This document shows, piece by piece, positions 14,741 to 33,830 of a DNA stretch of 64,000 bases; positions within the stretch are counted from its first letter, which is position 1; each line of letters begins with the position of its first letter. The stretch is from positions 1,364,001 through 1,428,000 of the forward strand of contig NZ_CP095042.1 in assembly GCF_022919715.1 (NCBI RefSeq). Direction: 5' to 3'. This DNA is from Agromyces sp. H17E-10 (GTDB lineage: Bacteria > Actinomycetota > Actinomycetes > Actinomycetales > Microbacteriaceae). The notes under the pieces are model-generated. The model did no database searches. It was not told where the DNA came from and worked only from the letters and a program-made list of their open reading frames with translations. Position numbers and translations under genes: made by a program.

Positions 14741-16252
14741 ATGAGCGTGCAACTGGAGACCTCGAACTTCCGCGCCCAGCACTTCCGCAAGACGCTGGGC
14801 CGCGCCGACATCGTGCTGATGTCGATCAGCGCGATCATCGCCATCGACACGATCGCCCTCATCGCGGGCGCCGGCGCCGAGGCGTTCACGTGGACGCTCG
14901 TGATCGGCATCACGTTCCTGTTCCCCTACGCCCTCGTGATCGCCGAGCTCGGCAGCGCCTTCCACGAGGAGGGCGGCCCGTTCGTGTGGGTGCGCCTCGC
15001 GTTCGGCAAGGCGACGGCCGCCGTCGCGACGATGTTCTACTGGATCACCAACCCGCTCTGGATGGGCGGCTCGCTCGTCTTCATCTCGGCCGCCGCGTGG
15101 GACGCGTACGTCGCGCCGCTCGCCCCCGGCAGCGTCGGCGACTACGTGTTCAAGATCGCGTTCATCTGGCTCGCGATCGCCACGGCTGTGATCGGACTGA
15201 ACTACGGCAAGCACATCCTCGCGGCCGGCGCGATCGTCAAGGTCGGCCTGCTCGCGATCTTCGTCGTCACGGTCGTGCTCTACGGCGCGCAGTACGGCAT
15301 CAACGGCTTCGCGGCCGGCGACTTCTCGCCGACGACCGCGGGCTTCCTCGCCGTCACCCCCGTGATCCTCTTCGCCGTCGTCGGCTTCGAGGCACCGAAC
15401 GGCGCCGCCGAGGAGATGCGCAACCCGCAGCGCGACGTGCCGCGGGCGATCGCCGCCTCGGGCACCATCTCGATGCTCTGCTACCTCGTGCCGATCTTCG
15501 CGCTGCTCGCGGTCGTGCCCGCCGACAAGATCGAGGGCGCCGGCGGATTCCTCGAGGCGCTTCGCGAGGTGTTCAAGGTCTACGGCGGAGCATCCGAGCC
15601 GGTCATGGCGATCGCCGCGCTGCTGTTCGTGTTCATCGCCTTCACGCAGGCGAGCGCCTGGATGATCGCCTCCGACCGGGTGCAGGCCGCCGCCGGCGCC
15701 GACGGCGCGTTCTTCCGCTACTTCGGCAAGTTCTCCGAGCGCCTCGGCACACCCGTGCGCATGAATCTGCTGAGCGGCATCGTCGCGACCGTGTTCTGCC
15801 TCGCGGCGACCGTGCTGCTCGACGGCAGCGCCGCGACGATCTTCACGATCGTGCTCATCGTCGCGATCTCGACCCTGCTGCTCTCGTACCTCGTGATCTT
15901 CCCGACCGTCGTCGTGCTGCGGCGCAAGTACGCCGACGTCGAGCGGCCGTTCCGGGTGCCCGGCGGCAAGGCGGGCCTGTGGGTGTGCTTCACCGTCATC
16001 TACGCCTGGGTGCTCCTGGGCTCGTGGGTCGCGGTCTTCCCGGGTACGCTCGAACCCCTCCTCGGCATCGACTACGACTTCGTCGACGTCTGGGGCGTCG
16101 ACCGGCTGACCTTCGAGCTCTTCACGATCGGCACCCTCGTCGTCATCGCCCTGCTCGCGATCGTCGGCTACCTGTGGCAGCGCAACCGCGACCGGGCGGC
16201 CGACCTCGACGTGATCGACGAGCTCGACGTCCTCGAGAAGACCGCCTCATGA
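14741..16252 (+). CDS. APC-superfamily amine/amino acid permease
   Basis: A 503-residue 12-segment APC transporter. The N-terminal [19 protein letters not shown] and the segment-6 motif [21 protein letters not shown] match the family. It is translationally coupled (ATGA at 16249-16252) to a copper amine oxidase, which strongly suggests that it imports a primary amine such as a biogenic amine or polyamine. GAGGAG lies 9 bases before ATG 14741. The C-terminus is a short charged cytoplasmic tail rich in Asp/Glu. The amine specificity is inference from context, because APC sequences alone do not reveal substrate. Confidence 0.87.
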
Positions 16253-18288
16253 ACTCGAACACCCTGATCGACCTGGATACGGAGAACACTGTGACCGACC
16301 TCGCCACCCCGACCCTGCGGCGGGTGCACCCGCTCGACCCGCTCGGAGCCGACGAGATCCTCGCCGCGCGCGACGTGCTCGTCGCCGAGGGTCGACTGGG
16401 CGCGACGGTCCGCGTCGCGTACCTCTCGCTCAAGGAGCCGGCGAAGCGACTGGTCGCGGCTGCGCTGGCGGGGGCACTCGCCTCGGATGCCGCATCCGAG
16501 GCCGCCCGGCACGCCGGCGCCCCGCACCGCGAGGCCCGCGTCATCCTGCTCGATACCGCGACGGGCGAGACCACCGACCTCGTGGTCGACCTCACGGCGA
16601 AGGCCGTCACGGCGTCGGTCGCGGTCGACCCGGCCGTCGCCGGCCAGGCACCCGTGCTGCTCGAGGAGTTCGACGCGATCGAGGAGATCCTCGCCGCCGA
16701 CGAGGGCTGGATCGCCGCCCTCGCCTCGCGCGGGCTCACCCCCGACCGCGTGCGCGTCGCCCCGCTCTCGGCGGGCATCTTCGACTACCCCGGCGAGGAG
16801 GGCAAGCGCCTGCTGCGCGGGCTCGCCTTCGTCGAGCGCGAGCCCGGCGACTACGCGTGGGGCCACCCGGTCGACCAGCTCGTCGCCTTCGTCGACATGA
16901 TCGAGCGCCGCGTCGTGCGCATCATCGACGACGGCCCGGCCGAGATCCCGCTCGACAACGGCAACTTCGAGGACCCCGAGCTCACGGGCCCGCTGCGCAC
17001 CGACCTCAAGCCGCTCGTCATCACCCAGCCTGAGGGCCCGAGCTTCGCGCTCGACGGCAACGTGCTGAGCTGGCAGAAGTGGGACCTGCACGTCGGCTTC
17101 GACGCGCGCGAGGGCCTCGTGCTGAGCCGCATCGGGTTCGACGACCGGGGCCGGCGCCGCTCGATCATCGACCGCGCGTCGATCGCCGAGATGGTCGTGC
17201 CGTACGGCGACCCCGCACCGTACCGGTCGTGGCAGAACTACTTCGACACCGGCGAGTACCTCGTGGGCCGCGACGCGAACTCGCTCGAACTCGGCTGCGA
17301 CTGCCTCGGCGAGATCACCTACCTCACGCCCGTCGTCGCCGACGACTTCGGCAACCCGCGCGAGATCCCGCAGGCGATCTGCATCCACGAGGAGGACTTC
17401 GGCCTGCTCTGGAAGCACACCGACGGCTGGGCCGGCCACAAGTCGACGAGGCGCCAGCGCCGCCTCGTCGTGAGCTTCTTCACGACCGTCGGCAACTACG
17501 ACTACGGGTTCTACTGGTACTTCTACCTCGACGGCACCATCGAGTTCGAGGCGAAGGCGACGGGCATCGTGTTCACCGCGCGGTACCCGGGCAAGGGCTA
17601 CCCGTACGCGTCCGAGATCGCGCCCGGGCTCGCCGCCCCGTACCACCAGCACCTGTTCTGCGCACGGCTCGACATGGCCGTCGACGGTGACGCGAACGCC
17701 GTGCACGAGCTCGACCTGCAGCGCGTGCCGAAGGGCGAGGGCAATCCGCACGGCAACGCGTTCACGCGTTCGCGGCGGGTGCTCGCGAGCGAGTCCGAGG
17801 CGCGGCGCAAGGCCGACGGCACGGTCGGCCGGGTCTGGGAGATCGTCAACACCGAGAAGACGAACGTCGTCGGCGAGCCCGTCGCCTACACGCTCTTCCC
17901 CGAGGGACAGCCCACGCTCGCCGCGGCCGACGACTCATCGATCAGCCGCCGCGCGGCATTCGCGACCGAGCACCTGTGGGTGACCCGCTTCGCGGACGAC
18001 GAGCGCTACCCCGCGGGCGACTTCGTGAACCAGAGCATCGGGTCGCCCGGCCTGCCCGAGTACATCGCAGCCGACCGCGACCTCGACGGGCAGGACCTCG
18101 TCGTCTGGCACAGCTTCGGCCTCACCCACTACCCCCGCGTCGAGGACTGGCCGATCATGCCCGTCGACTACACGGGCTTCACGCTCAAGCCCACGGGCTT
18201 CTTCGACCAGAACCCGGCGCTCGACGTGCCGCCGTCGCAACCCGCGAAGGGACACTGCGGCGCCGAGGGCGACGCCTGCCACTGCTGA
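16249..18288 (+). CDS. Copper-containing primary amine oxidase
   Basis: A 679-residue quinoprotein that oxidises R-CH2-NH2 to the aldehyde with release of ammonia and hydrogen peroxide. The topaquinone precursor is Tyr417 in the signature NYDY. Copper ligands are His466 and His468 (HQH) and His627 ([10 protein letters not shown]). The catalytic base is Asp333 in NYFDTGEY. All key residues are intact, and no signal peptide is seen, so it is cytoplasmic. ATG 16249 overlaps the permease stop; GTG 16291, with GGAG before it, is a possible alternative. The unusual Cys-rich tail is [10 protein letters not shown]. The aldehyde could be handled by the aldehyde dehydrogenase at 23945, but that gene is in another operon. 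Confidence 0.93.
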
Positions 18289-18365: not shown

Positions 18366-19013
18366 CAGGAGAAATCGCCATCCGGCCGCGAAACCGGACC
18401 CATCAGCCCGGATATCCTGCAATCCGCACCCGGATGCCGCCACCGCCGCTGCACGTACAGGACCATCCGGCGAGCAGACCCGCATGCGGGCCTACCTGCC
18501 GAAATATCCTGCAAGCGGCCCGGGATGCCGCCCCCAGCACCCGCCGCCAGCCGCGCCGCGGAAAACAGGAATATCCAACACGCACCCCCGCGTACAGGCC
18601 TGCCTGTCGAAATATCCTGCTCAAGGCCCCGGATGCCGCCGTCCCCAGCCGTGCCCGGCCGTCCGCCATCGCGTAAAACAGGAATATCCGACACGCACCC
18701 CCGCATACAGGCCTGCCTGCCGAAATATCCTGCTCAGGGCCCCGGATGCCACCACCGCTCCCAGCCGCGCCTGGCCGTCCCGCCATCGCGTAAGCAGGAA
18801 TATCCGACACGCACCCCCGCATACAGGCCTGCCTGCCGAAACATCCTGCTCAGGGCCCCGGATGCCACCACCGCTCCCAGCCGCGCCTGGCCGTCCCGCC
18901 ATCGCGTAAGCAGGAATATCCGACACGCACCCCCGCATACAGGCCTGCCTGCAGAAACATCCTGCTCAAGGCCCCGGATGGCACCACCGGCGCCCGCCCG
19001 CAACCAGCTCCAC
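18366..19013. repeat. Tandem repeat array, unit about 116 bp, five to six copies
   Basis: Copies begin with CAGGA at 18458, 18566, 18679, 18795 and 18911, giving units of 108, 113, 116 and 116 bp. A degenerate copy starts at 18366. The last copies are nearly identical and the first two diverge. Each unit holds an inverted pair, GCAGGAATATCC and AAATATCCTGC, around a CAGGCCTG palindrome, then CCCCGGATGCC and a GC-rich stretch ending in CGCCATCGCGTAA. A, T and C use differs from the neighbours. Long open frames cross it on both strands only because the unit has few stops; the length is not a multiple of three, so I call no gene. There is no repeat-spacer alternation, so it is not a CRISPR array. 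Confidence 0.85.
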
Positions 19014-19048: not shown

Positions 19049-19975
19049 TTACTCCCGCGGCGCCCCGAACAGCTCCCGCGCGAGCGTCGCGACGACCCGC
19101 GCCCGGGCCGTCGGCCGCACGCCCGCGACGCGCACGAGGCACACGTCGAGCGGCGGCACGTCGTCGGCGATCGGCACGGCGGCCAACTCCCCGCCGTCGT
19201 AGGTCTGCGACGAGCGTGGCACCTGGTTGAGGATCGAGAAGCCCTGCCCGCGAGCGACGAGCGAACGCACCGTCTCGTAACTGCGTGAGCTGTAGCGGAT
19301 CTGCGGATCCAACCCCGCCGCGGCGAGCATGCCGAGGAAGTACTCGCGCGAGTGCGGCATGTCGAGCAGCACGAGGTCGAGTCCGGCGAGCTCGGCGAGC
19401 GCGATCGGCGTCGAACGTGCGGCGAGCGGGTGCGCGGCCGGCAGGATCACGTGCGGGGGCGCCGAGTACAGGTGGTCGAACGCGAGGTCGTGCAGTTGCC
19501 CGAAGTCGTACGCGATCGCCGCCTCGACCGAACCGTTCAGCAGCATCGCGACCGTGCCGTCGGCGTCGGCCTCGATGACCTCGATGCGCAGGTGCGGGTG
19601 CTCGGCCTCGACGCGCGAGATGAGCGTCGGCAGCACGAACGGCGCGATCGTGACGAAGCACGCGAGCCGCAGCGTGCCGCGCACGTCGTAGTGGTGGCCG
19701 CGCACGGCCTCAGCCATCTCGTCGACCTGGGCGAGCAGCGAGTGCGCGTCGCGCAGCAGCTGCTCGCCGGCCTCGGTGAGGGCGAGTCCCTTGCTTCGCT
19801 GCCGCACGAAGAGTTGCACGCCGAGGGTGCGCTCGAGCTGGGCGATCGCGGTCGAGACCGCTGACTGCGCGACGTGCAGGTCGACGGATGCCTCGGTCAT
19901 CGAGCGCTTGGTCGCGGCCGCGACGAAGTAGCGCAGCTGCACGAGGGTCAGGTCTGATCGGCCGAGTCGAGCCAT
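19049..19975 (-). CDS. LysR-family transcriptional regulator
   Basis: A 308-residue LysR-type regulator. The N-terminal winged helix-turn-helix spans about residues 10-68 (LRYFVAAATKRSMTEAS, then VAQSAVSTAIAQLERTLG). A periplasmic-binding-protein-like effector domain runs from about residue 95. It is divergent from the flavin monooxygenase operon, the classical arrangement for a LysR activator of the neighbouring pathway. The 119-bp shared promoter contains an ATCA-N7-TGAT element of T-N11-A type. Its inducer is presumably the substrate or an intermediate of that operon. Family assignment is certain; the target is inference. Confidence 0.9.
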   Translation of the reverse strand: MARLGRSDLTLVQLRYFVAAATKRSMTEASVDLHVAQSAVSTAIAQLERTLGVQLFVRQRSKGLALTEAGEQLLRDAHSLLAQVDEMAEAVRGHHYDVRGTLRLACFVTIAPFVLPTLISRVEAEHPHLRIEVIEADADGTVAMLLNGSVEAAIAYDFGQLHDLAFDHLYSAPPHVILPAAHPLAARSTPIALAELAGLDLVLLDMPHSREYFLGMLAAAGLDPQIRYSSRSYETVRSLVARGQGFSILNQVPRSSQTYDGGELAAVPIADDVPPLDVCLVRVAGVRPTARARVVATLARELFGAPRE

Positions 19976-19986
19976 GCCGCCATCGT

Positions 19987-20001
19987 ATCAATCAAGCTGA
20001 T
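19987..20001. promoter_or_regulatory. Likely LysR-binding box
   Basis: ATCAATCAAGCTGAT is an interrupted inverted repeat ATCA-N7-TGAT that fits the T-N11-A rule for LysR sites. It lies 11 bases before the LysR start codon and 22 bases upstream of the -35 box of the divergent operon, suitable for autoregulation and activation. Confidence 0.5.
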
Positions 20002-20023
20002 GCACTGTCTCAGCATTGTCTGG

Positions 20024-20052
20024 TTTACAGATGCAACCGACTTTCCTAGCGT
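20024..20052 (+). promoter_or_regulatory. Likely promoter of the flavin monooxygenase operon
   Basis: TTTACA (20024-20029) and TAGCGT (20047-20052) are separated by 17 bases. The start codon of the first gene follows 43 bases later, after GGAGTTTCGGG. The -10 match is modest, in keeping with an activator-dependent promoter. Confidence 0.45.
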
Positions 20053-20094
20053 GAATTGCACCGGTGAAGACGCCGGTCGGAATGGAGTTTCGGG

Positions 20095-21474
20095 ATGTCG
20101 AGTCACGAGATCGACGAGGTCGACGTGGTCGTCGTCGGCGCAGGCCAAGCCGGGATCGCGATGAGCGAGCACCTCGGCGCACGAGGGATCTCGCACGTGG
20201 TGCTCGAGCGCGACCGCATCGCCGAGCGCTGGCGCACTGGGCGCTGGGACTCGCTCGTCGCGAACGGCCCCGCCTGGCACGATCGGTTCCCGGGCCTCGA
20301 GTTCGAGGGGCTCTCACCCGACTCGTTCGCCGCGAAGGACCGCGTCGCCGACTACTTCGCCGAGTACGCCCGGCAGATCGACGCGCCGGTGCGCACGGGC
20401 GTCGAGGTGCGTTCGGTGCGGCGGCGCGAGGGCGCGCCGGGCTTCGAGGTGCAGACGACCGACGGCGACTACCTCGCCCGCTTCGTCGTCGCGGCGACGG
20501 GTCCCTTCCAGAAGCCGGTCATCCCTGATCTCGTGCCGGCAGGCAGCCCCGTGCACCAGCTCCACTCGAGCGGCTATCGCAACCCCGGCCAGCTGCCGGC
20601 GGGCGGCGTGCTCGTGATCGGCGCCGGTTCGTCGGGCGTGCAGATCGCCGACGAGCTCCGCGCCTCGGGCCGCCAGGTGCACCTCGCCGTCGGCCCGCAC
20701 GACCGCCCGCCGCGCGCCTACCGCGACCGCGACTTCTGCTGGTGGCTCGGGGTCCTGGGCAAGTGGGATGCCGCGGCGCCCGCGGCCGGCGCCGAGCACG
20801 TCACGATCGCCGTCAGCGGGGCGCACGGCGGGCACACCGTGGACTTCCGCAAGCTCGCCGCCGACGGCATCACGCTCGTCGGCCGGGCGGCCGCGTACGA
20901 CGACGGCGTCATGCGCTTCGCGCCCGACCTCGCGGCGAACATCGCCCGCGGTGACGCCAACCTGCTCTCGCTCCTCGACGAGGCCGACGCCTACGTCGAG
21001 CGCAACGGCCTCGACCTGCCCGAAGAGCCCGAGGCCCGGGTGCTCGGGCCCGACCCCGCGTGCGTGACCGACCCCGTGCTCGAGCTCGACCTCGCCGCCG
21101 CGGGCATCACCTCGATCGTCTGGGCGACGGGGTTCGCCGTCGACTACGGCTGGCTCGAGGTCGACGCGTTCGACGAGCGCGGACGCCCCCGCCACCAGCG
21201 CGGCGTCTCGGTCGAGCCGGGCGTCTACTTCCTCGGGCTGCCGTGGCAGTCGCGGCGCGGGTCGAGCTTCATCTGGGGCGTCTGGCACGACGCGAAGTAC
21301 CTCGCCGACCAGATCGGCATCCAGCAGAGCTACCGCGCATACGACGAGGCCGCCGCGAACGCCGCGGTCGCGGCATCCCCCATCGAAGCGGCGGCACCCG
21401 CCGAACCGGATGCCGCGCCCGAGACCCCCACGCCCGCCGAAGCCGCCCTCACGACGTCAGGAGCACTCCGTTGA
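20095..21474 (+). CDS. Flavin-containing monooxygenase-like FAD/NADPH oxidoreductase
   Basis: A 459-residue flavoprotein with two dinucleotide-binding folds: FAD motif GAGQAG (residues 15-20) and NADPH motif GAGSSG (176-181). A WATGF motif appears near residue 345. The overall pattern is that of bacterial FMO/YUCCA-like enzymes, which hydroxylate amines or perform Baeyer-Villiger-type oxygenation. The C-terminal 35 residues are an Ala/Pro/Glu-rich tail of low complexity. It is the first gene of a five-gene operon in which every junction overlaps; its TGA overlaps the TTG start of the RidA gene. The substrate is unknown; a nitrogen compound is likely because RidA and an amidohydrolase follow. 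Confidence 0.85.
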   Translation: MSSHEIDEVDVVVVGAGQAGIAMSEHLGARGISHVVLERDRIAERWRTGRWDSLVANGPAWHDRFPGLEFEGLSPDSFAAKDRVADYFAEYARQIDAPVRTGVEVRSVRRREGAPGFEVQTTDGDYLARFVVAATGPFQKPVIPDLVPAGSPVHQLHSSGYRNPGQLPAGGVLVIGAGSSGVQIADELRASGRQVHLAVGPHDRPPRAYRDRDFCWWLGVLGKWDAAAPAAGAEHVTIAVSGAHGGHTVDFRKLAADGITLVGRAAAYDDGVMRFAPDLAANIARGDANLLSLLDEADAYVERNGLDLPEEPEARVLGPDPACVTDPVLELDLAAAGITSIVWATGFAVDYGWLEVDAFDERGRPRHQRGVSVEPGVYFLGLPWQSRRGSSFIWGVWHDAKYLADQIGIQQSYRAYDEAAANAAVAASPIEAAAPAEPDAAPETPTPAEAALTTSGALR

Positions 21475-21959
21475 CCACCCACACGCGCATCCGGCCCTTC
21501 AACACGAAGGTCACCTACCCCGAGCAGAACCTCGACAACGACCTCTGCCAGGCGGTCGTCGCGGGCGGCGTCGTCTACCTGCGCGGGCAGATCGGGCAGG
21601 ACCTCGAGACCCGCGAGTCGGTCGGCATCGGTGACGTCGAGGCGCAGGCGGAGCAGGCGATGGCGAACATCGCGATGCTGCTCGAAGAGGCGGGCTCGTC
21701 GCTCGACGACATCGTGAAGGTCGTCGTCTACCTGATCGACCCGCGCTATCGCGAGCCGGTGTACCGGGTCATGGGCAAGTGGCTGCAGGGCGTCTTCCCC
21801 GTCTCGACGGGGCTCGTCGTGAGCGCGCTCGCGCGTCCTGAGTGGCTCGTCGAGATCGACGCGACCGCGGTGATCAGCGGCCCGCGAACGTCGGCCGACG
21901 CCGGTACCGCCGACGCTGCGGCCGGCGCTGCGGCACGCACCGAAGGCGGTGCGGCATGA
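21471..21959 (+). CDS. RidA/YjgF-family protein (enamine/imine deaminase)
   Basis: A 162-residue protein of the YER057c/YjgF/UK114 group, whose members hydrolyse reactive enamine or imine intermediates or act in dedicated degradation pathways. Family features include the FNTKVTYPEQ start, GGVVYLRGQIG and VVVYLIDPRYREPVYRVMGKW. A substrate-binding Arg corresponding to E. coli RidA Arg105 is not obvious, so it may belong to a specialised Rid subgroup. The TTG start at 21471 (TTGA overlap) has CAGGAG 7 bases upstream and no better ATG. The last 25 residues are Ala/Gly-rich and outside the family core. Its TGA overlaps the DUF1028 ATG. Confidence 0.85.
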   Translation: MTTHTRIRPFNTKVTYPEQNLDNDLCQAVVAGGVVYLRGQIGQDLETRESVGIGDVEAQAEQAMANIAMLLEEAGSSLDDIVKVVVYLIDPRYREPVYRVMGKWLQGVFPVSTGLVVSALARPEWLVEIDATAVISGPRTSADAGTADAAAGAAARTEGGAA

Positions 21960-22690
21960 CCTTCTCCATCGTCGCCAGGGATGCCTCGGGCGCCATCGGC
22001 TCCGCGATCTGCTCGTCGTCGCCCGCGGTCGCCGCCCGGTGCGTGCACCTCGCCGACGGCGTCGGCGGCGTCAACTCGCAGAACGTGACCGACCCGCGTC
22101 TCGGCCCCGCGGTGCTCGCCCGGCTCGCCGCCGGCGACTCGGCGGCCGAGGCCCTCGCCGCCGTGGTCGACGGGCGCGAGCACGTCGAGTTCCGCCAGCT
22201 CCTCGTGGTCGACGCCGAGGGACGCACCGCGGTGCACTCGGGTGAGCGGGCGCTCGGCGTCTTCGCCGACGCGCAGGGCGGCGGCGCGCGCGCGAGCGGC
22301 GCGAGCGGCGCAGCCGACCCGGGTGCGTCCCGCGCGATCGGCGAGGGCGTCGCCACGGGCGGCAACATGCTCGCCTCGGCCGACATCCCGCAGCTCATGG
22401 TCGAGCGGTTCGAGCAGGCCGAGGGCGACCTCGAAGTCCGGCTGGTCGCCGCGATGCGCGCCGCGATCGACGCGGGCGGCGAGGCCGGCCCGGTGCACTC
22501 GGCGGGTCTCTCGGTCGTGCGCGACCACGGCTGGCGGGTCACCGACCTGCGCGTCGACTGGATCGACGACGACCCGATCGGCGAGCTCGAACGACTCGTC
22601 GACGTGTGGCTCCCCCAGCGCGACGACTACGTGACCCGTGCGCTCGACCCCTCGGCCGCTCCGTCGTACGGGGTGCCCGGCGATGAGTGA
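21956..22690 (+). CDS. DUF1028 family protein (predicted Ntn-hydrolase-like)
   Basis: A 244-residue protein opening with the family signature TFSIVARDASGAIGSAICSS, followed by GVGGVNSQN and an EGVATGGNML stretch. DUF1028 proteins have a predicted N-terminal-nucleophile-hydrolase-like fold and no established reaction that I can name with confidence. They are often encoded near RidA-like and peptidase genes, as here. A Gly/Ala/Ser-rich insert of about 20 residues (near 103-122) looks like a flexible loop. ATG 21956 overlaps the RidA stop, and the next gene starts inside its end (8-bp overlap). A role in hydrolysing an amide or acyl intermediate is inferred from fold and context only. Confidence 0.82.
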   Translation: MTFSIVARDASGAIGSAICSSSPAVAARCVHLADGVGGVNSQNVTDPRLGPAVLARLAAGDSAAEALAAVVDGREHVEFRQLLVVDAEGRTAVHSGERALGVFADAQGGGARASGASGAADPGASRAIGEGVATGGNMLASADIPQLMVERFEQAEGDLEVRLVAAMRAAIDAGGEAGPVHSAGLSVVRDHGWRVTDLRVDWIDDDPIGELERLVDVWLPQRDDYVTRALDPSAAPSYGVPGDE

Positions 22691-23948
22691 CACCGCGACG
22701 GCGAGCGACCGAGCCGAAACGAGCGACCGAGCCACGACGCGCACCCGATCGGTCGCCGCGATGAAATCGGCGGCCGATGCGGCGGTGGCCGAGGCATCCC
22801 CCTCGCTCATCGCCCTCTCGCAGACGCTGCACGCCCACCCCGAGACCGCGTGGCAGGAGCACCGCGCCGCGGGCTGGGTCGGCGACGCGCTCGACGCCGC
22901 CGGGTTCCGGGTGACGCCCGCCTACCTCGGGTACGAGACGGCGCTCCTCGCCGAGGCCGGCAGCGGGCCGACGACCATCGGCGTCATGGCCGAGTACGAC
23001 GCGCTGCCCGGGCTCGGGCACGCGTGCGGGCACAACCTCATCGCGGCGAGCGCGGTCGGCGCGGGGCTCGCGCTCGCGCGGGTCGCCGACGAGCTCGGCA
23101 TCACGGTGCGGGTCTACGGCACGCCCGCCGAAGAGGGCGGCGGCGGCAAGATCGAGCTCATCGAGGCGGGCGCGTTCGGCGACCTCGACCTCGCGATGAT
23201 GGTGCACCCCGGCCCGGTCGACGTCGCCGAGGCGCGGCCCTTCGCCGTCTCGCACAGCCACGTCGCCTACGACGGCGTCTCGGCGCACGCGGCGGCCTAC
23301 CCCGACGAGGGCGTCAACGCGAACGACGCGTTCGTCATCGCCCAGGTCGCGATCGGGATGCTGCGCCAGCAGCTGCCCGCCGACACGAGGGTGCACGGCA
23401 TCCAGACCCTCGGCGGGTTCGCGCCGAACGCGATCCCCGAGCGCACCGAGGGCCGCTGGTACGCCCGGGCGAACACGCTCGCCGAGCTCGAGGTGCTCGA
23501 GGAGCGCGTGCGCCGGTGCTTCGAGGCAGGCGCCCTCGCGTCGGGGGCGAGCCTCACGATCACGCCCGAGTCGAAGCCGTACGCCGAGTTCCGCACCGAC
23601 GAGCGCGCGCTCGCGGCCTACCGCGCGAACGCGCTCGACCGCGGCCGCGTCTTCGCCGACCCGCTCGTCGCCGGCCGCATGAACCGCGCCTCGACCGACA
23701 TGGGCAACGTGTCGCAGCTCGTGCCCGCGATCCACCCGTACATCGGCATCGACTCGCTGCCGCACACCAACCACCAGCCGGAGTTCGCGGCCGCGTGCGT
23801 CGGCCCAGCCGCCGAGCGCGCCCTCGTCGACGCCGCCGCGCTCATGGCGTTCACGGCGATCGACGTCGTCACGTCGCGCGGCGCCGCCGCACACGACCAC
23901 GCCTCGAACACCCCAGCCACCTCCGACGACCGGGAGCACGCATCATGA
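22683..23948 (+). CDS. M20-family amidohydrolase / metallopeptidase
   Basis: A 421-residue cytoplasmic zinc or manganese hydrolase of the M20D (AbgB/aminoacylase-like) group that cleaves N-acyl or amide bonds. Metal motifs include EYDALPGLGHACGHN and TPAEEGGGGKIEL, with a late TDMGNVSQ/HPYIGI region. A dimerisation domain lies between about residues 190 and 310. ATG 22683 is taken because it overlaps the DUF1028 end; ATG codons about 40 residues later are possible alternatives, since the first 30 residues are charged and not conserved. Its stop overlaps the aldehyde dehydrogenase start (ATGA). In this operon it may deacylate an N-acylated amine or amino acid. Confidence 0.86.
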   Translation: MSDTATASDRAETSDRATTRTRSVAAMKSAADAAVAEASPSLIALSQTLHAHPETAWQEHRAAGWVGDALDAAGFRVTPAYLGYETALLAEAGSGPTTIGVMAEYDALPGLGHACGHNLIAASAVGAGLALARVADELGITVRVYGTPAEEGGGGKIELIEAGAFGDLDLAMMVHPGPVDVAEARPFAVSHSHVAYDGVSAHAAAYPDEGVNANDAFVIAQVAIGMLRQQLPADTRVHGIQTLGGFAPNAIPERTEGRWYARANTLAELEVLEERVRRCFEAGALASGASLTITPESKPYAEFRTDERALAAYRANALDRGRVFADPLVAGRMNRASTDMGNVSQLVPAIHPYIGIDSLPHTNHQPEFAAACVGPAAERALVDAAALMAFTAIDVVTSRGAAAHDHASNTPATSDDREHAS

Positions 23949-25426
23949 CCACCACCGACTGGGCGGCCCGCAGCCGCGAACTCGCCATCGACGGCCGCGC
24001 CGTCATCGACGGCAAGCGGGTGGATGCCGCGGACGGCGGCACCCTCGCCGTCGTGAGCCCCGGCTCGCTCGCGCACCTGGCGGATCTCGCCGCGGGCACC
24101 GAGCGCGACGTCGACCTCGCGGTCGACCACGCCCGCCGCGCCTTCGACGACGGCCGCTGGAGCCGCATCGACGCGGCCGAGCGGGGCCGGGTGCTCGTGC
24201 GCCTCGCCGACCTCATGATTGAGCACCTCGACGAGCTCGCCCTGCTCGAGACGCTCGACTCGGGCAAGCCGATCGCCCAGACCCGGGTCGTCGACGTGCC
24301 CGGCGCCGCGGCGACGTTCCGCTGGTACGGCGAGCTCGCCGACAAGCGCTTCGACGAGATCCCGTCGACGCCGCCCGGGTCGACCGCACTCGTCCGCCGC
24401 GTGCCGCTCGGCGTCGTCGGCGCGATCGTGCCGTGGAACTACCCCCTCGAGATCGCGGCGTGGAAGCTCGCCCCCGCCCTCGCCTCGGGCAACTCGGTCG
24501 TGCTGAAGCCCGCGACCGAGACGTCCCTCAGCGCCCTGCGGCTCGCCGACCTCGCCCTCGAAGCGGGTGTCCCCGCGGGCGTGCTCAACGTCGTCCCGGG
24601 CCGGGGTTCGACCGTCGGCGGGCGCATCGCGCGGCATCCCGGCATCGACGTGCTCGCGTTCACGGGGTCGACCGCCGTCGCGAAACAGCTCATGGTCGAC
24701 GCCGGCACCTCGAACATGAAGCGCGTCGCCCTCGAGGCGGGCGGCAAGAGCTCGAACCTCGTCTTCGCCGACGCCGACCTCGAGCTCGCCGCGGCGAAGG
24801 CCGCGTTCGGCGCGTTCTACAACCAAGGCCAGGTGTGCTCGGCGAACTCGCGCATCCTCGTCGAGCGGAGCGCGCACGACGAGTTCGTGGGGCTCCTCGC
24901 CGAGGCATCCCGGGCGTACGAGCCGAGCGACCCGCTCGCCGGAGCCGACGGCAACGGCAGCCTCATCAGCCGGGCGCACGCCGACGAGGTGGGCGCGGCG
25001 ATCGCACGGGCCGCCGGCGACGGCACCCTCGTGTCGGGCGGCGAACGCGTGACGATCACCGGGTCGGACGCATACCTGCGCCCGGCGATCGTCACCGGCC
25101 TCGCCGCCGACCACGACCTGCACCGGGTCGAGGTGTTCGGGCCGCTCGTCGCGGTGCTGCCCTTCGACGGGGAGGACGAGGCCGTGCGCCTCGCGAACGC
25201 CACCGACTACGGCCTCGCCGCGTCGCTGTGGACGACCGACCTCGCCCGGGCGCACCGCGTCTCGGAGCGCCTCGTCGCCGGCACCGTCTCGGTCAACACG
25301 GTCGACGCGCTCGGGCTCACGACGCCGTTCGGCGGATTCCGCCAGTCGGGCTTCGGCCGTGACCTGTCGCGGCACGCGCTCGACAACTACACCGACTGGA
25401 AGACGACGTGGTTCCAGTGGGCGTGA
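23945..25426 (+). CDS. NAD(P)-dependent aldehyde dehydrogenase
   Basis: A 493-residue enzyme that oxidises an aldehyde to the carboxylic acid. Catalytic Cys298 lies in FYNQGQVCSANSR and the general base Glu264 in LEAGGKSSN. The cofactor-site PWNYPLEIAAWKLAPAL and VLKPATETSLSAL motifs are intact. It resembles dehydrogenases for gamma-glutamyl-aminobutyraldehyde or betaine aldehyde (PuuC-like). It is the last gene of the LysR-controlled operon and overlaps its neighbour as ATGA. The pathway probably yields an aminoaldehyde-like intermediate. It might also serve the amine oxidase product or alpha-ketoglutarate semialdehyde from the hydroxyproline locus; no evidence here decides this. Confidence 0.92.
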   Translation: MTTTDWAARSRELAIDGRAVIDGKRVDAADGGTLAVVSPGSLAHLADLAAGTERDVDLAVDHARRAFDDGRWSRIDAAERGRVLVRLADLMIEHLDELALLETLDSGKPIAQTRVVDVPGAAATFRWYGELADKRFDEIPSTPPGSTALVRRVPLGVVGAIVPWNYPLEIAAWKLAPALASGNSVVLKPATETSLSALRLADLALEAGVPAGVLNVVPGRGSTVGGRIARHPGIDVLAFTGSTAVAKQLMVDAGTSNMKRVALEAGGKSSNLVFADADLELAAAKAAFGAFYNQGQVCSANSRILVERSAHDEFVGLLAEASRAYEPSDPLAGADGNGSLISRAHADEVGAAIARAAGDGTLVSGGERVTITGSDAYLRPAIVTGLAADHDLHRVEVFGPLVAVLPFDGEDEAVRLANATDYGLAASLWTTDLARAHRVSERLVAGTVSVNTVDALGLTTPFGGFRQSGFGRDLSRHALDNYTDWKTTWFQWA

Positions 25427-26371: not shown

Positions 26372-27136
26372 TCAGCGCACGTAGTCCGCGCCGGTGATGT
26401 CGATCGTGGCTCCCGTGGTGTGCCGCGAGGCGCCGCTCGCGAGGAACGCAATGACGGCCGCGACGTCGTCGGGCGGCGTGACCTCGCCGAGCGGCAGCCC
26501 GGCGAGGAGGGCTTCGTCGACGGCGCCGTCGGCGAGCTCGGTCGCGACCCATCCGGGCGCGACCGCGTAAGCGAGCACCCCGTCACGGCCGTAGCCCCGG
26601 GCGATGCCCTTCGTCAGCGCGAGCAGGCCGCCCTTGGCGGCGCCGTACGCAAGATGCTCGGCGTCGTCGCCGCGGTGCGCCGACCGGCTCGTCACGTTCA
26701 CGATGATGCCGCCGCCGCGCTCGCGGAAGTGCAGGACGGCCAGTCGGCAGAGCTCGGCGGGCGCACGCAGGTTGAGCGCGAGGTTGCGGTCCCAGCCCTC
26801 CTGCCACCCGGCATCCGAGTCGATCGCCGACGGCAGCCAGGCGCCTGCGTTGTTGACGAGCACGTCGACGACCCCGGTCGCCTCGAGCGCCCGTCGCCAG
26901 ACGTCGGCCGGGCCCTCGTCGGTCGCGAGGTCGCCGCCGACCGCGGTGGCCCGGCCGCCGAGCTCGGCCACGAGCGCCTGTGCCGTCTCGGCGTTGCGTC
27001 CGTAGTGCACGACGACGTGCGCGCCCTGGCGATGGACCTCCCTGGCCGTGGCCGCCCCGATGCCGCGCGAGCCGCCCGTGACGAGCACGGTCTTCCCGGC
27101 GAGCTGGCGTGCCGCCGCGGCATCCCGGTCGCTCAT
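26372..27136 (-). CDS. Short-chain dehydrogenase/reductase (SDR)
   Basis: A 254-residue classical SDR with cofactor motif TGGSRGIG, structural NNAGAW, catalytic Ser in VNVTSRSAHRG and Tyr-X3-Lys in AYGAAKGG. The residue after the second beta strand lies in HYGRNAE, which suggests NADP(H) preference. ATG 27136 overlaps the stop of the preceding SDR gene (ATGA). It is downstream in the hydroxyproline-type operon. Two SDRs next to each other could oxidise or reduce a hydroxyl intermediate, but the known hydroxyproline route needs no SDR, so its function is open. Confidence 0.85.
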   Translation of the reverse strand: MSDRDAAAARQLAGKTVLVTGGSRGIGAATAREVHRQGAHVVVHYGRNAETAQALVAELGGRATAVGGDLATDEGPADVWRRALEATGVVDVLVNNAGAWLPSAIDSDAGWQEGWDRNLALNLRAPAELCRLAVLHFRERGGGIIVNVTSRSAHRGDDAEHLAYGAAKGGLLALTKGIARGYGRDGVLAYAVAPGWVATELADGAVDEALLAGLPLGEVTPPDDVAAVIAFLASGASRHTTGATIDITGADYVR

Positions 27137-27915
27137 GCCGCCGCCTGCGCGCCGGTGATCTCGACGATCGAGCCGGTCAGGTACGGGGCCTCGTCGCTCG
27201 CGAGGAAGGCGACCAGCGCTGCGATCTCCTCGGGCTCGCCGATGCGCCCGAACGGCACCAGCCGGTCGAGGTCGGCGACGGTGCGGCCGGTGCGTTCGAG
27301 GTTCGACTCGAGCATCGGGGTGCGCACCTCGCCGGGCGCCACCGCGTTCACGCGGATGCCGCTCGGACCGTAGTCGCGCGCGAGGTTGCGCGTGAACGCC
27401 ACGACCGCGGCCTTCGACGTGTTGTACGCGAGGTGCCCCGGCACCGGGTAGAGCCCCCACTGCGACGCGGTGTTGACGACCGATCCGGCTCCGGCCGCGA
27501 TCATGTGCGGCAGCACCGCCCGGCAGAGGTGGAACATCGCGTCGACGTTCACCGCGAAGCTCAGCGACCAGTCGTCGGCACCGAGCTCGAGCAGCGCCCC
27601 GCGCCGGTTGACGCCCGCGTTGTTCGCGAGCACGTCGATGCGGCCGTGGGCCGCGACGATCTCGTCGGCGGCCGCCGCGCAGGCCCCGCCGTCGAGCAGG
27701 TCGAAGACCGAGGCGGATGCCGCTCCCCCGGCCGCACGGATGCGGGCGACGGTCGCCTCGGCGGCGTCGCGGTTCACGTCGGCGACGATCACGGTGGCGT
27801 GCTCTGCGGCGAGTCGTTCGGCGATCGCCGAACCGATGCCGCCGCCGGCGCCGGTGACGACGGCGACCTTGCCCGCGAAGCGGACGGCGCCGGAGGGTAC
27901 GGGTCGACGGGTCAT
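27133..27915 (-). CDS. Short-chain dehydrogenase/reductase (SDR)
   Basis: A 260-residue classical SDR with TGAGGGIG cofactor motif, VADVNRDAAE (Asp after the second strand, favouring NAD), NNAGVN, and the catalytic Tyr-X3-Lys in AYNTSKAA. ATG 27915 overlaps the stop of the proline-racemase-family gene, and its own stop overlaps the next SDR, so the genes are translationally coupled. Both SDRs share only family-level similarity and are not a recent duplication. The likely role is oxidation of a hydroxy acid connected with the hydroxyproline pathway or of an accessory substrate; this is inference from position. Confidence 0.85.
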   Translation of the reverse strand: MTRRPVPSGAVRFAGKVAVVTGAGGGIGSAIAERLAAEHATVIVADVNRDAAEATVARIRAAGGAASASVFDLLDGGACAAAADEIVAAHGRIDVLANNAGVNRRGALLELGADDWSLSFAVNVDAMFHLCRAVLPHMIAAGAGSVVNTASQWGLYPVPGHLAYNTSKAAVVAFTRNLARDYGPSGIRVNAVAPGEVRTPMLESNLERTGRTVADLDRLVPFGRIGEPEEIAALVAFLASDEAPYLTGSIVEITGAQAAA

Positions 27916-28976
27916 GGCTGTGGCCCCCAGATGTCGCCGACGGTGTAGCCCGCCGGGAACGGATCGGTCGAGTCGAGGATCCAGGTCGAGCGACCCGTGA
28001 TCCAGGCGCGACCGGTGACGGTCGGCAGCACGGCCGGGCGTCCGGCCACGGTCGTGGTTCCGGTCAGCGCGCCGATGAACTCGCTGCCGATGATGCTGCG
28101 GTGCGAGAACTCCTCGCCGATCGCGAGCTGGCCGCGCGCGTGCAGGGCGGCCATGCGGGCGCTCGTGCCGGTGCCGCACGGCGAGCGGTCGAGCGCACCG
28201 GTCCAGGTCGACGGGTCGTCGGCGTCGAGCCGCCCGTTCGTGAGCACGACGGTGTTGCGAGCTTGCTCCCCCGGCACCCGGTCGCCCGAGTGCAGCATGA
28301 TCAGGTTCACGCGATCGATCGACGGATTCGTCGGATGTACGACGTCGAACTGCTGCTGCGCGGCGAGCTTGATCAGCGCGCCCGCCCGGGCGAGAGCCCG
28401 ACCGTTCTCGGGCGCGAGGTCGAGGCCGAGGTCGGCCGCCCGCACCTGGGCGAAGAACTGGCCGCCGTAGACGATGTCGGCCCTGACCTCGCCGAACTCC
28501 TCGACCTGCAGCGGAGTGTCGAGCGCGACGACGAACGACGGCACGTTCACAATCGTCACCGATGTGACCTTGCCGTCGTCGACGTGCGCGATCGCCTTCA
28601 CCGTGCCGACGGCCGTGTCGATCGTGACCTCGGTCACGGGGCCGGTGCTCCTGACGATGCCGGTCTCGATCGCGGCGGTCACCGCGCACATCGTGTTGCT
28701 GCCCGACATCGGGGTGAAGCCGCCCTGCTCGAGCACGACGATGCCGAAGTCGGACTCGGGGTTCACCGGAGGCAGCAGGAACACGGCGCAGAGGCCCGGG
28801 TAGCCGCGCGGCTCGCGCAGGATGGCACGCCGGAGGCCGTCGAGGTTCGCCACGCAGTAGTCGAACCGCTCGGCCATCGTCGTGCCTTCGACGAGCGCCG
28901 CCGCGTTCGTGATGACGCGGCCGGGCTCGCCCTCGGCGTGGACCTCGACGGCGTCGAGCTCGAAGACGGTGGTCAT
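27912..28976 (-). CDS. Proline racemase family enzyme, likely 4-hydroxyproline 2-epimerase
   Basis: A 354-residue cytoplasmic epimerase expected to convert trans-4-hydroxy-L-proline to cis-4-hydroxy-D-proline. The two active-site loops read TPMSGSNTMCA (residue 91 is Ser where most racemases have Cys) and RSPCGTGTSARMA (Cys267). Ser/Cys pairs are known in some 4-hydroxyproline epimerases, whereas 3-hydroxyproline dehydratases carry Thr at the second position. The neighbours are a D-amino-acid-oxidase-type flavoenzyme and a DHDPS-family lyase, the next two enzymes of hydroxyproline breakdown. ATG 28976 overlaps the lyase stop and the gene's own stop overlaps the SDR start. A different proline-like substrate cannot be excluded. 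Confidence 0.85.
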   Translation of the reverse strand: MTTVFELDAVEVHAEGEPGRVITNAAALVEGTTMAERFDYCVANLDGLRRAILREPRGYPGLCAVFLLPPVNPESDFGIVVLEQGGFTPMSGSNTMCAVTAAIETGIVRSTGPVTEVTIDTAVGTVKAIAHVDDGKVTSVTIVNVPSFVVALDTPLQVEEFGEVRADIVYGGQFFAQVRAADLGLDLAPENGRALARAGALIKLAAQQQFDVVHPTNPSIDRVNLIMLHSGDRVPGEQARNTVVLTNGRLDADDPSTWTGALDRSPCGTGTSARMAALHARGQLAIGEEFSHRSIIGSEFIGALTGTTTVAGRPAVLPTVTGRAWITGRSTWILDSTDPFPAGYTVGDIWGPQP

Positions 28977-29890
28977 GCCGCCGACGGTACCGCGAGCACG
29001 CCGAGCTCGGCGAGCGCGGCCGCGATGCGCTCGCGGTCCTCGGCCGCGAGCGGGAGGATCGGGGCCCGAACCGGGCCGACGGGCGTACCGGTGAGTTCGA
29101 GTGCGGCCTTGATGCCGGCCGCGTAGTTGACCGACTCGAGCACGTCGCTGAGCGTCCAGAGCGGGGCCCAGAGCTCGCGCCCCCGGTCGAGGTCCTTCTC
29201 GATCGCGACCGTGCGGAACAGCTCGGCCGCGTGACCGGGCACGATCGAGGCGACACCCCAGACCGAGCCCTTCGCCCCGAGGGTGAGCCCGTAGAACGTG
29301 AGCGTGTCCCACCCGTTGAATGCGGTGATCTCCGCCGACCGGTTCGTGAGCACGTCGGTGAACGTGACCGCGTCGCCCGAGGTGTCCTTGAAGTAGTCGA
29401 CGCCGTCGATGCCGCCGAGCTCGGCGAGCTGCGAGGCGTCGAGGCTGATGCCGGTCGCGCCCGGGACGTTGTAGTACACGATCTGCAGGTCGACCGCGTC
29501 GGCGACGGTCGCGAGGAACGCCTTCAGCGCGTCGAACGAGAGCGGGTCGTAGAAGGGGGGCACGACCATGAGCGCATCGGCCCCGACCGCTTCGGCGTAG
29601 CGGGCGAGCTCGACCGCTCCCGCCGTCGAGGTGCTGCCGATGCCGGCGACCACGGGGATGCGGCCGGCCGCCGCCTCGACGTTGAGGCGGATGACCTCGC
29701 GGTACTCGGTGTCGGTGAGGCTCGTGAACTCGCCGGTGGTGCCGGTCGGCACGATGCCGCCGAGACCGCCCGCGATCATCCGCTCGACCTGCGCGTGGAG
29801 CGCGTCGGCGTCGACGGCGCGCCCGTCGGCGGTGAACGGGGTCGGGATCGCGGCGAGCACCCCGTGGAGGTCGGCGTTCTTCCTGGTCAT
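28973..29890 (-). CDS. DHDPS/NAL-family lyase, likely pyrroline-4-hydroxy-2-carboxylate deaminase
   Basis: A 305-residue class I aldolase-fold enzyme. The Schiff-base lysine is Lys168 in VDYFKDTSGD, the Tyr of YYNVPG is present, and the pyruvate-binding GTTGEFTSLT loop is intact. In hydroxyproline catabolism a member of this family (LhpC/HypD type) dehydrates and deaminates delta-1-pyrroline-4-hydroxy-2-carboxylate to alpha-ketoglutarate semialdehyde. That fits between the upstream flavoenzyme and the downstream epimerase gene. ATG 29890 follows AAAGGA by 8 bases. Another member of the superfamily, such as a keto-deoxy-sugar-acid aldolase, is possible from sequence alone but not supported by context. 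Confidence 0.85.
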   Translation of the reverse strand: MTRKNADLHGVLAAIPTPFTADGRAVDADALHAQVERMIAGGLGGIVPTGTTGEFTSLTDTEYREVIRLNVEAAAGRIPVVAGIGSTSTAGAVELARYAEAVGADALMVVPPFYDPLSFDALKAFLATVADAVDLQIVYYNVPGATGISLDASQLAELGGIDGVDYFKDTSGDAVTFTDVLTNRSAEITAFNGWDTLTFYGLTLGAKGSVWGVASIVPGHAAELFRTVAIEKDLDRGRELWAPLWTLSDVLESVNYAAGIKAALELTGTPVGPVRAPILPLAAEDRERIAAALAELGVLAVPSAA

Positions 29891-29911
29891 GAGATGGTCC
29901 TTTCGTCGAGG

Positions 29912-31153
29912 TCAGCGGCCGCCGCGGAAGCGGGCGGGCGAGAAGGGGGCGAGCACCGGTGCGGCGCGGCGTTCGCGGATGAGGTCGGTGAGCGCCCGGG
30001 CGGTCGCCGGGGCGAGGGTGACGCCGAGCATGCCGTGCCCGGTGGCGACGTAGCCGTTGCGGAGGCGCGGAAGTGCTCCGATGATCGGCAGCCCGTCGGG
30101 CGTCATCGGTCGCATGCCGGCCTTCGGCGTGAGCTTCGCCGTCGGCGGCTCCCAGTCGCGGAAGTACGTCGCGGGCGCACGCAGGATGGCGTCGACCCGC
30201 ACCTGGTTGATGTGCTCGTCGAGCCCGCCGAACTCCATGGTCCCGGCGAGCCGGAGGTTGCGGCTCAGTGGCGTGACGGCGACCTTCGCGTCGTGCAGGT
30301 TGGTCGCAGAGCGCAGGCCGAGGGGTTCGATGTCGATGCAGTAGCCCTTGCCGGGCCGCACGGGCAGGCTCGCCCCGAACAGCTTCGAGAGCGGCCCGGT
30401 CCACGCGCCGGCGGCGAGCAGGAACGCGTCGCCCGCGAAGGTGCGCGAGCCCGACGAGACGCTCACGATGCGATCGCCCGCGACCTGCACCCCGTCGATG
30501 GGCGCGTTCTCGACGATCTCGACCCCGAGCTCGACGAGCTTCGAGTGCAGCGCACCGACGAAGGCGGCCGGGTCGAGGTGCAGTTCCTTGGGGAAGTACA
30601 GGCCGCCCTCGACCGCGTCGGACAGTAGCGGCTCGTGCTCGCGCACCGCGTCGCCGACGAGCACCGACGGTTCGAGCCCGTACTGCCGCACGAGGTCGAC
30701 GTAGCCGAGGTGGTGCTGCATCAGCTCCTTCTCCTTGAAAGCCATGAGCAGGCCCTCGTGGTGGAGCTCGTAGTCGACGCCGTCGGCCCGGTACTCGTCG
30801 AACAGGTGCACGCTGTCCTCGGCGAGCGCGAGGTGCGCCGCGAACCCCGCGCGCTGGTCCTTCGCGTTCGACGCACGCCAGAGCCCGAACATGAACGAGA
30901 CGAACGAGGGCCGCAGCGACGGCTTGATGTAGAGGGGCGAGTCCGGGCGCAGCATCCATTTCATGGAGGTGAGCACCACGCCGGGGCCGGGCACCGGCGC
31001 CGCCTCGGCGGGAACCACCCAGCCGGCGTTGACGTCGCTCGCGCCGAGCCCGGTCGGTCGCGCGTCGACGAGCGTGACCGTCTCGCCGTCGCGGGCGAGG
31101 TGGTAGGCGGTGGTGAGGCCGATGACGCCGCCGCCGATCACGACTGTGTGCAC
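29912..31153 (-). CDS. FAD-dependent D-amino acid oxidase/dehydrogenase (hydroxyproline type)
   Basis: A 413-residue DAAO-superfamily flavoprotein with the N-terminal FAD motif GGGVIG (residues 7-12), DARPTGLGASDVNAGW, and the C-terminal GLPIIGALPRLRNGYVATGHGMLG. It should oxidise cis-4-hydroxy-D-proline to delta-1-pyrroline-4-hydroxy-2-carboxylate, using a quinone or oxygen acceptor. No membrane segment is evident. The start is GTG at 31153 with AAAGGA 7 bases upstream. A hairpin separates it from the ABC transporter genes, so the catabolic genes may be expressed at a lower level from the same promoter. A glycine or sarcosine oxidase role is less likely given the neighbours. Confidence 0.85.
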   Translation of the reverse strand: MHTVVIGGGVIGLTTAYHLARDGETVTLVDARPTGLGASDVNAGWVVPAEAAPVPGPGVVLTSMKWMLRPDSPLYIKPSLRPSFVSFMFGLWRASNAKDQRAGFAAHLALAEDSVHLFDEYRADGVDYELHHEGLLMAFKEKELMQHHLGYVDLVRQYGLEPSVLVGDAVREHEPLLSDAVEGGLYFPKELHLDPAAFVGALHSKLVELGVEIVENAPIDGVQVAGDRIVSVSSGSRTFAGDAFLLAAGAWTGPLSKLFGASLPVRPGKGYCIDIEPLGLRSATNLHDAKVAVTPLSRNLRLAGTMEFGGLDEHINQVRVDAILRAPATYFRDWEPPTAKLTPKAGMRPMTPDGLPIIGALPRLRNGYVATGHGMLGVTLAPATARALTDLIRERRAAPVLAPFSPARFRGGR

Positions 31154-31180
31154 TGGGAGGTCCTTTCAGGTGGGGGTGTA

Positions 31181-31212
31181 CCGGGGCGGGGAGTCCCCAC
31201 TTCCCGCCCCGG
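31181..31212 (-). terminator. Intercistronic hairpin between transporter and catabolic genes
   Basis: A perfect 10-bp GC stem (31181-31190 with 31203-31212) lies in the 63-bp gap between the ABC ATPase and the FAD oxidoreductase genes. It may act as a partial terminator or an mRNA end stabiliser for the upstream transporter message. Confidence 0.55.
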
Positions 31213-31216
31213 TGGT

Positions 31217-32793: not shown

Positions 32794-32813
32794 GGGATAT
32801 CAGCGCCCCTCGG

Positions 32814-33704: not shown

Positions 33705-33773
33705 TGCGGGGCCTGTTCTCTGTGAGGTCGCGGTTCGCGAGGGGGACTTGCCTACTTCGGACTGCGTTGTCTT

Positions 33774-33786
33774 AGTGTCTGACAAT
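33774..33786 (-). promoter_or_regulatory. GntR operator copy A (transport/catabolic operon)
   Basis: AGTGTCTGACAAT (minus strand ATTGTCAGACACT) matches the perfect copy at 35299 in 11 of 13 positions. It lies about 15 bases downstream of the -10 box at 33802-33807, where a bound repressor would block transcription. A further GTTGTC half-site is next to it. Confidence 0.55.
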
Positions 33787-33801
33787 CTGGCGATGCGTGA
33801 G

Positions 33802-33830
33802 ATATTACATACGGGTCCCGCGGGCCGCAA
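33802..33830 (-). promoter_or_regulatory. Likely promoter of the hydroxyproline-type operon
   Basis: On the minus strand TTGCGG (33825-33830) and TAATAT (33802-33807) are separated by 17 bases. TAATAT is one of the best -10 boxes in the window. Transcription would run through operator A into the solute-binding protein gene. Confidence 0.6.

Follow-up and report, generated by a model that had tools for sequence, protein, structure and literature searches.

Gene content and layout of the locus

We analysed a stretch of 64,000 nucleotides (the window) from the 4.25 Mb genome of Agromyces sp. H17E-10 (contig NZ_CP095042.1, positions 1,364,001 to 1,428,000). Five consecutive genes in this stretch encode an FAD monooxygenase (FMO), a RidA-fold protein, a protein of the DUF1028 family, an M20 amidohydrolase and an aldehyde dehydrogenase (ALDH), next to a divergent LysR gene (Table 1). 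From the comparisons given below we consider it likely that these genes form a hin-type operon for the catabolism of histamine via imidazole-4-acetate.

The initial annotation had named the five gene families, and every one of them was confirmed by Pfam. Reading the sequence also confirmed, exactly as claimed, the divergent LysR gene and an overlap at all four junctions: TTGA between FMO and RidA, ATGA between RidA and DUF1028, 8 bp between DUF1028 and M20, and ATGA between M20 and ALDH. The operon structure, the assignment to the catabolism of a nitrogen compound and the idea that this gene set could give DUF1028 a function are in our judgement right as well. Two further genes, for a permease and a copper amine oxidase (CuAO), lie outside the region described at that time and probably belong with the operon. 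In the nearest named locus, that of Agromyces sp. S2-1-8 (L003), the same eight genes are kept in the same order with 85-99% identity. All four actinobacterial relatives (L003-L006) likewise have the permease and CuAO genes upstream of LysR; the permease adjoins the cluster there and is 74-93% identical.

Table 1. Features of the locus with their positions in the window and the evidence for each assignment.
Feature	Position	Strand	Evidence
HinA-like APC-family amino acid/amine permease	14741..16252	+	Pfam AA_permease_2, 154.6 bits
Copper/topaquinone primary-amine oxidase (CuAO), proposed histamine oxidase	16255..18288	+	Pfam Cu_amine_oxid, 513.7 bits
Divergent LysR regulator, HinK-like	19049..19975	-	LysR Pfam domains
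Divergent promoter region with candidate LysR operator block GTATCAA...GATGCA	19976..20094		Six-region alignment
HinF-type FAD monooxygenase (FMO), proposed imidazoleacetate monooxygenase	20095..21474	+	Pfam Pyr_redox_3/FMO-like
HinL-type RidA-fold protein, TTG start	21471..21959	+	Pfam Ribonuc_L-PSP
DUF1028, proposed HinH, N-terminal-Thr (Ntn) amidohydrolase	21956..22690	+	Pfam DUF1028, 188 bits (cut-off 26.2)
M20 amidohydrolase, PM20D2/HmrA type, HinG slot, proposed N-formylaspartate deformylase	22683..23948	+	Pfam Peptidase_M20
Aldehyde dehydrogenase (ALDH), HinD-like	23945..25426	+	Pfam Aldedh, 507.2 bits

Conservation of the gene set

The co-occurrence of RidA, DUF1028, M20 and FMO, which had been set beforehand as the neighbourhood check, was studied in two surveys. 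For the first, DUF1028 was searched in 199 genomes of the family of the window (Microbacteriaceae, judged by named relatives), own genome included, and found in 31 of them. All above-cut-off places outside the own genome were fetched, giving 31 loci from 30 genomes, and one below-cut-off match was left out. A gene was counted as present if tblastn gave a match inside the fetched stretch, which was 12-18 kb long in most cases and 4.4 kb in one, while neighbouring genes were called by a simple codon-position rule used solely for finding recurring neighbours. All four genes occur together in 19 of these 31 loci, corresponding to 19 of the family's 198 other sampled genomes; in the fetched stretches of the remaining 12, neither RidA nor FMO was found. 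The 19 family core loci also comprise LysR (18 loci), ALDH (17), an NCS1 permease (10), a GMC oxidoreductase (9), CuAO (6) and a class III aminotransferase (5).

The second survey started from the FMO, for which 394 genomes from the window's class were searched. Matches were obtained in 71 genomes and split clearly: in 20 genomes (own included) identity is at least 66%, while all 57 other matches reach at most 47%. RidA, DUF1028 and M20 accompany the FMO in 17 of the 19 HinF-type loci outside the own genome. As a control, 20 loci were taken from the 57 weaker matches (the 19 best and one low). In the fetched stretches of these distant FMO paralogues neither DUF1028 nor M20 occurs; one has a RidA relative (39%) at a distance of 7-8 kb and one an ALDH at 32%. 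The gene set is therefore conserved together in both surveys. It is a conserved unit beyond chance and recurs in distant genomes, and because gene orders differ between relatives the association is not the mere inheritance of one frozen stretch.

The separation of the FMO matches also bears on a cluster of the Nit1C type (nitrilase/MSMEG_0569). The best named NCBIfam model of the FMO is indeed TIGR04046 (MSMEG_0569) with 365 bits, but the cut-off of 498 bits is missed, the gap between HinF-type and other FMOs is clean, and no nitrilase was found among 16 neighbouring genes run through Pfam. We regard this reading as having a negligible chance of being correct and dropped it in view of the missed cut-off and the 20 paralogue loci without the partner genes.

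Likeness to the hin genes and the proposed pathway

A gene set with the same order of roles and a known substrate has been described in Pseudomonas. According to a 2021 review, hinFLHG of this genus correspond to PA5393-PA5390 and come with hinD, hinA, hinC and the LysR gene hinK; P. putida U needs these genes to use histamine, and HinFLHG act between imidazole-4-acetate and aspartate (PMC8231116). A 2019 paper on Brevibacterium assigns HinF as FAD-monooxygenase (EC 1.14.13.5), HinL as enamine deaminase, HinG and HinH as amidases, HinD as aldehyde dehydrogenase and HinI as aspartate ammonia-lyase (PMC6467879). In both P. putida U and P. aeruginosa PAO1 the published order of roles is monooxygenase, Rid-family protein, hypothetical protein or amidase and peptidic-bond hydrolase, with an ALDH, an APC permease and a LysR regulator in addition (PMC8231116, PMC6467879), so that FMO, RidA, DUF1028, M20 and ALDH of the window fit F-L-H-G-D role by role. 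By order and roles, and not by direct sequence comparison, this is the characterised identical cluster of known substrate that had been named beforehand as a refutation, and the statement that the operon is undescribed and fits no nameable pathway can no longer be upheld. Likewise the FMO, first pictured as an N-oxygenase of an amine, is better read as an imidazoleacetate monooxygenase, HinF in PMC6467879. We see here a known pathway in variant form; what is new is the probable link of HinH to DUF1028, a serine-type RidA and another M20 subfamily in the HinG slot.

The variant differs from Pseudomonas in two further points: hinD lies there in a separate cluster whereas the ALDH gene of the window is joined to the overlapping operon, and the place of the aminotransferase HinC is taken by CuAO. 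The Brevibacterium strains L261, S111 and S22 grow on histamine and have a putative histamine pathway, and the actinobacterial homologues of HinF (EB834_10890), HinL (10880), HinH (10875), HinI (10895) and HinD (10860) form one stretch by locus tag; a histamine oxidase homologue is also reported (PMC6467879). However, HinG was assigned there to the unlinked EB834_09805 (PMC6467879), whereas a PM20D2-like M20 lies inside the cluster of the window, and an M20 within the cluster may have been overlooked in that assignment. In the same way the Brevibacterium oxidase is unlinked by its locus tag EB834_15475 (PMC8921697), whereas CuAO is encoded at our locus.

The published identities between P. putida and Brevibacterium are 60-63% for HinF, 61-65% for HinL, 48-50% (over 100%) for HinH and 50% for HinD (PMC6467879). 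The window and five Burkholderiaceae loci (L007-L009, L072, L079) come near to these values with 68-69% for FMO, 64-69% for RidA and 48-51% for DUF1028. The four-gene core was found in 17 class-survey and 19 family loci, although a 2018 Pseudomonas study reportedly did not find hin genes in any genome of Gram-positive bacteria (PMC8231116). Bacteria able to degrade histamine are also of practical relevance to foods (PMC6467879).

Following the hin scheme, histamine would be imported by the APC permease and converted by CuAO to imidazole acetaldehyde, which the ALDH (HinD) would oxidize to imidazole-4-acetate. The FMO (HinF) would then hydroxylate the imidazole ring to an imidazolone, whose opening may be promoted by the RidA-fold protein (HinL). 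DUF1028 (HinH), a presumed Thr-nucleophile amidohydrolase of the N-terminal nucleophile (Ntn) type, would release the second ring nitrogen as ammonia and leave N-formyl-aspartate. This would be deformylated to aspartate by the M20 enzyme in the HinG slot, and aspartate would be turned into fumarate by an aspartate ammonia-lyase encoded elsewhere in the genome. Imidazole acetate would be sensed by the divergent HinK-like LysR protein. While the content and order of the genes, their conservation, the features of the subfamilies and the predicted fold are observed here, orthology to the Pseudomonas genes, the substrate used in this organism and the individual reactions (most of all those of HinL and HinH) are proposed by analogy.

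The following findings bear on this scheme. CuAO passes the cut-off of the primary-amine oxidase model NF008559 (876.6 bits, cut-off 651) and contains at residue 411 the sequence TxxNYD, which we take to be the cofactor motif of copper amine oxidases. In favour of the scheme, 17 of the 19 family core loci have a front-end enzyme within the fetched stretch, be it CuAO, a class III aminotransferase or a GMC oxidoreductase. The best solved structures for the LysR protein are 3fzv and 6m5f (E about 5e-46), both presumably HinK (3fzv from P. aeruginosa), although the structure search itself does not say so; a search of 369 genomes with the 3fzv sequence gave, at E 1e-80 or better, one distant match (47%). 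The model predicted for the LysR protein from its sequence alone has a predicted local distance difference test score (pLDDT) of 39, too low for use. In the alignment of six intergenic regions a block in the divergent promoter region is conserved in relatives and is a possible LysR operator. A gene homologous to that of aspartate ammonia-lyase (HinI) is present in the own genome at G000:303536, unlinked and 60% identical to the cluster-linked one of Arthrobacter. Also in favour of the scheme, aspartate ammonia-lyase adjoins the cluster in eight of the 19 class loci and is annotated beside it on plasmids of Arthrobacter and Pseudonocardia.

Other observations weigh against the histamine scheme. 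L123 and L129, two of the 19 class loci, have the FMO without RidA, DUF1028 and M20, and L123 has CuAO, permease and LysR in their place. Of 369 genomes sampled from the class to which the Burkholderia genome belongs (presumably Gammaproteobacteria in GTDB), nine, counting that genome, carry an FMO with 59% identity or more to the Burkholderia one (E 1e-120 or better). Only five of these nine loci combine FMO, RidA, DUF1028 and ArgE within the fetched stretch; of the remaining four, two lie on a short contig or at a contig end. Proteobacterial DUF1028 proteins are as low as 43% identical to that of the window, and HinH is equated with DUF1028, and HinF with the FMO, by gene order, roles and levels of identity, not by direct comparison with Pseudomonas. 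The nearest solved relatives of CuAO are phenylethylamine oxidases, and the enzyme could prefer an amine other than histamine. The type of front-end enzyme varies, and one lies within the fetched stretch in only six of the 17 class core loci. The APC permease lies near one of the 19 family core loci and near four of the 19 loci in the class survey, and just one of the former has a linked aspartate ammonia-lyase. Because the front end varies and the permease and aspartate ammonia-lyase are weakly linked, the entry substrate may differ.

The last point leads to a reading in which the same back end is fed by another imidazole or N-heterocycle, for example imidazole ethanol or imidazole acetate taken up directly, with CuAO as a neighbour of general role. 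The front ends of the relatives, which include CuAO, class III aminotransferase, GMC oxidoreductase, NCS1 permease and Rieske oxygenase, speak for it, as does the fact that most loci have neither permease nor aspartate ammonia-lyase linked to the cluster. A similar hint comes from plasmid pTAV3 of Paracoccus versutus (L077, 8101-11906), where RidA-DUF1028-ArgE are combined with an HpaB-type (4-hydroxyphenylacetate 3-hydroxylase-family) protein at the place of the FMO; the FMO of the window has no match on pTAV3. But CuAO and permease stay upstream of LysR in the four nearest named relatives, and ALDH belongs to the great majority of family core loci, though to only 10 of the 17 class core loci. 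On balance we regard another entry compound as rather unlikely. HutD is encoded near the pTAV3 genes. In Paraburkholderia, Burkholderia and Caballeronia (L007-L009 and L072), genes for a Rieske oxygenase and a putative spermidine-type ATP-binding cassette (ABC) transporter lie divergently to the cluster.

A general catabolism of amines or polyamines (phenylethylamine, putrescine), in which FMO and RidA act on imines as pictured in the initial annotation, appears very improbable to us. It would explain why PuuC is the best NCBIfam match of the ALDH and why CuAO has phenylethylamine oxidases as best solved relatives. However, the ALDH stays below the PuuC cut-off (543 versus 850 bits), for which the polyamine pathway was dropped, such pathways are not known to need the unit of FMO, RidA, DUF1028 and M20, and the RidA protein lacks the catalytic arginine.

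The RidA-fold, DUF1028 and M20 proteins and neighbouring sequences

The catalytic arginine is a criterion for imine hydrolysis by RidA proteins (PMC4433059). At the position of Arg107 of UK114, the RidA of the window has Ser112, and in 54 RidA sequences (the window included; pieces at least 58% identical to it, as cut by tblastn) this position is occupied by Ser in 52, Phe in one and Cys in one. The role as imine or enamine hydrolase, assumed earlier, is weakened by this replacement of the residue on which imine hydrolysis depends. Because the canonical arginine is lacking, the published label of HinL as enamine deaminase is doubtful too, which counts against the histamine scheme. The protein scores below the cut-offs of both TIGR00004 (69 bits, cut-off 106) and RutC (36 bits, cut-off 169), and the Rut pyrimidine pathway was dropped in view of the latter.

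DUF1028 has at least 7998 relatives in the database search. Thr2 is conserved in all 53 cluster-linked proteins (window included; L067 dropped for its missing start) and in all eight other DUF1028 proteins compared, the latter being a part of all unlinked ones. The predicted model (pLDDT 83) is closest in Foldseek to 2imh (SPO2555), which shares Pfam family and fold at 28% identity, and then to Ntn hydrolases, with proteasome subunits and Anbu ranking next. Compared with 2imh, the cluster-linked proteins have their own invariants: R28, N43, P47, G50, W193, Y225, R228 and Y-G-V near the C-terminus. With the Ntn hydrolases Taspase-1 and type-2 asparaginase, identity is 12% and taspase is absent among the 50 Foldseek matches listed; a shared fold shows no function. 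Archaeal inosine monophosphate cyclohydrolase, which we take to be of Ntn fold, is absent among the fold-search matches listed, which excludes nothing. Against an Ntn enzyme stands the leucine preceding the threonine in 2imh, presumably a vector residue from the cloning tag. The DUF1028 protein of the window has a low-complexity insertion of 21 residues (106-126; window 22271-22333) in the lowest-confidence part of the model, and of the 53 linked sequences aligned, the 52 others have a gap opposite residues 110-126.

Judged from order, roles and identity levels, HinH is most likely a DUF1028 protein; our certainty is high but not complete. In the main texts of the open-access papers searched, with subscription papers and supplements outside the search, DUF1028 (also COG3342/PF06267) is not mentioned, and therefore its link to hin appears unmade in open text. 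As a tentative mechanism, the ring-opened imidazolone would be the substrate of DUF1028: the serine-type RidA would open the ring at its C=N bond, yielding N-formyl-isoasparagine, whose amide DUF1028 with its N-terminal Thr would cleave in an asparaginase-like manner, and a deformylase would finish. If true, this would replace the textbook formiminoaspartate route and assign a role to DUF1028 as well as to the RidA minority that has serine in place of arginine. The histamine scheme ties a family of unassigned reaction to a defined, assayable pathway step and points to two biochemical questions, the opening of the imidazolone ring and the role of RidA proteins without catalytic arginine.

A second kind of DUF1028 is found in L054, L057, L059 and L065, in the absence of RidA and FMO. 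In L054 it adjoins a putative dipeptide-type ABC transporter and an XRE-type regulator, and the other three loci seem to share gene groups with it. Because this kind adjoins a transporter and a regulator without RidA or FMO, DUF1028 probably has more than one substrate. DUF1028 also matches plasmid records of Klebsiella (105), Pantoea (14) and Escherichia (7). On the K. pneumoniae plasmid NC_023334 (L075), typed as conjugative and the one of these records looked at in detail, RidA-DUF1028-ArgE and an ABC transporter are followed about 10 kb on by an HinF-type FMO (61%).

The M20 protein is above the cut-off of TIGR01891 (187.5 bits, cut-off 153.75). Its best structures are the Xaa-Arg dipeptidase 7yh4 (E 3e-64), presumably PM20D2, and HmrA (3ram, E 9e-61). 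With ArgE of L007 it is barely alignable (29% over 90 residues, E 5e-4). In the Burkholderiaceae, in Acetobacter and in another four genomes from the Burkholderia class, ArgE-type enzymes lie in or near the HinG slot. Unlike the Proteobacteria examined, Actinobacteria thus fill this slot with another M20 subfamily, as far as the sequences tell.

Two features close to the operon should be mentioned. On the minus strand, window positions 26372-33830 encode two short-chain dehydrogenases, members of the proline racemase and DHDPS families, a DAO-type oxidase and an amino-acid-type ABC transporter, which presumably resemble a hydroxyproline-type catabolic cluster. Between the CuAO and LysR genes lies a 116-bp tandem repeat (18566-18989; 3.7 copies, 93% match), two units of which match in the genome only this array and, at 80%, one 44-bp piece.

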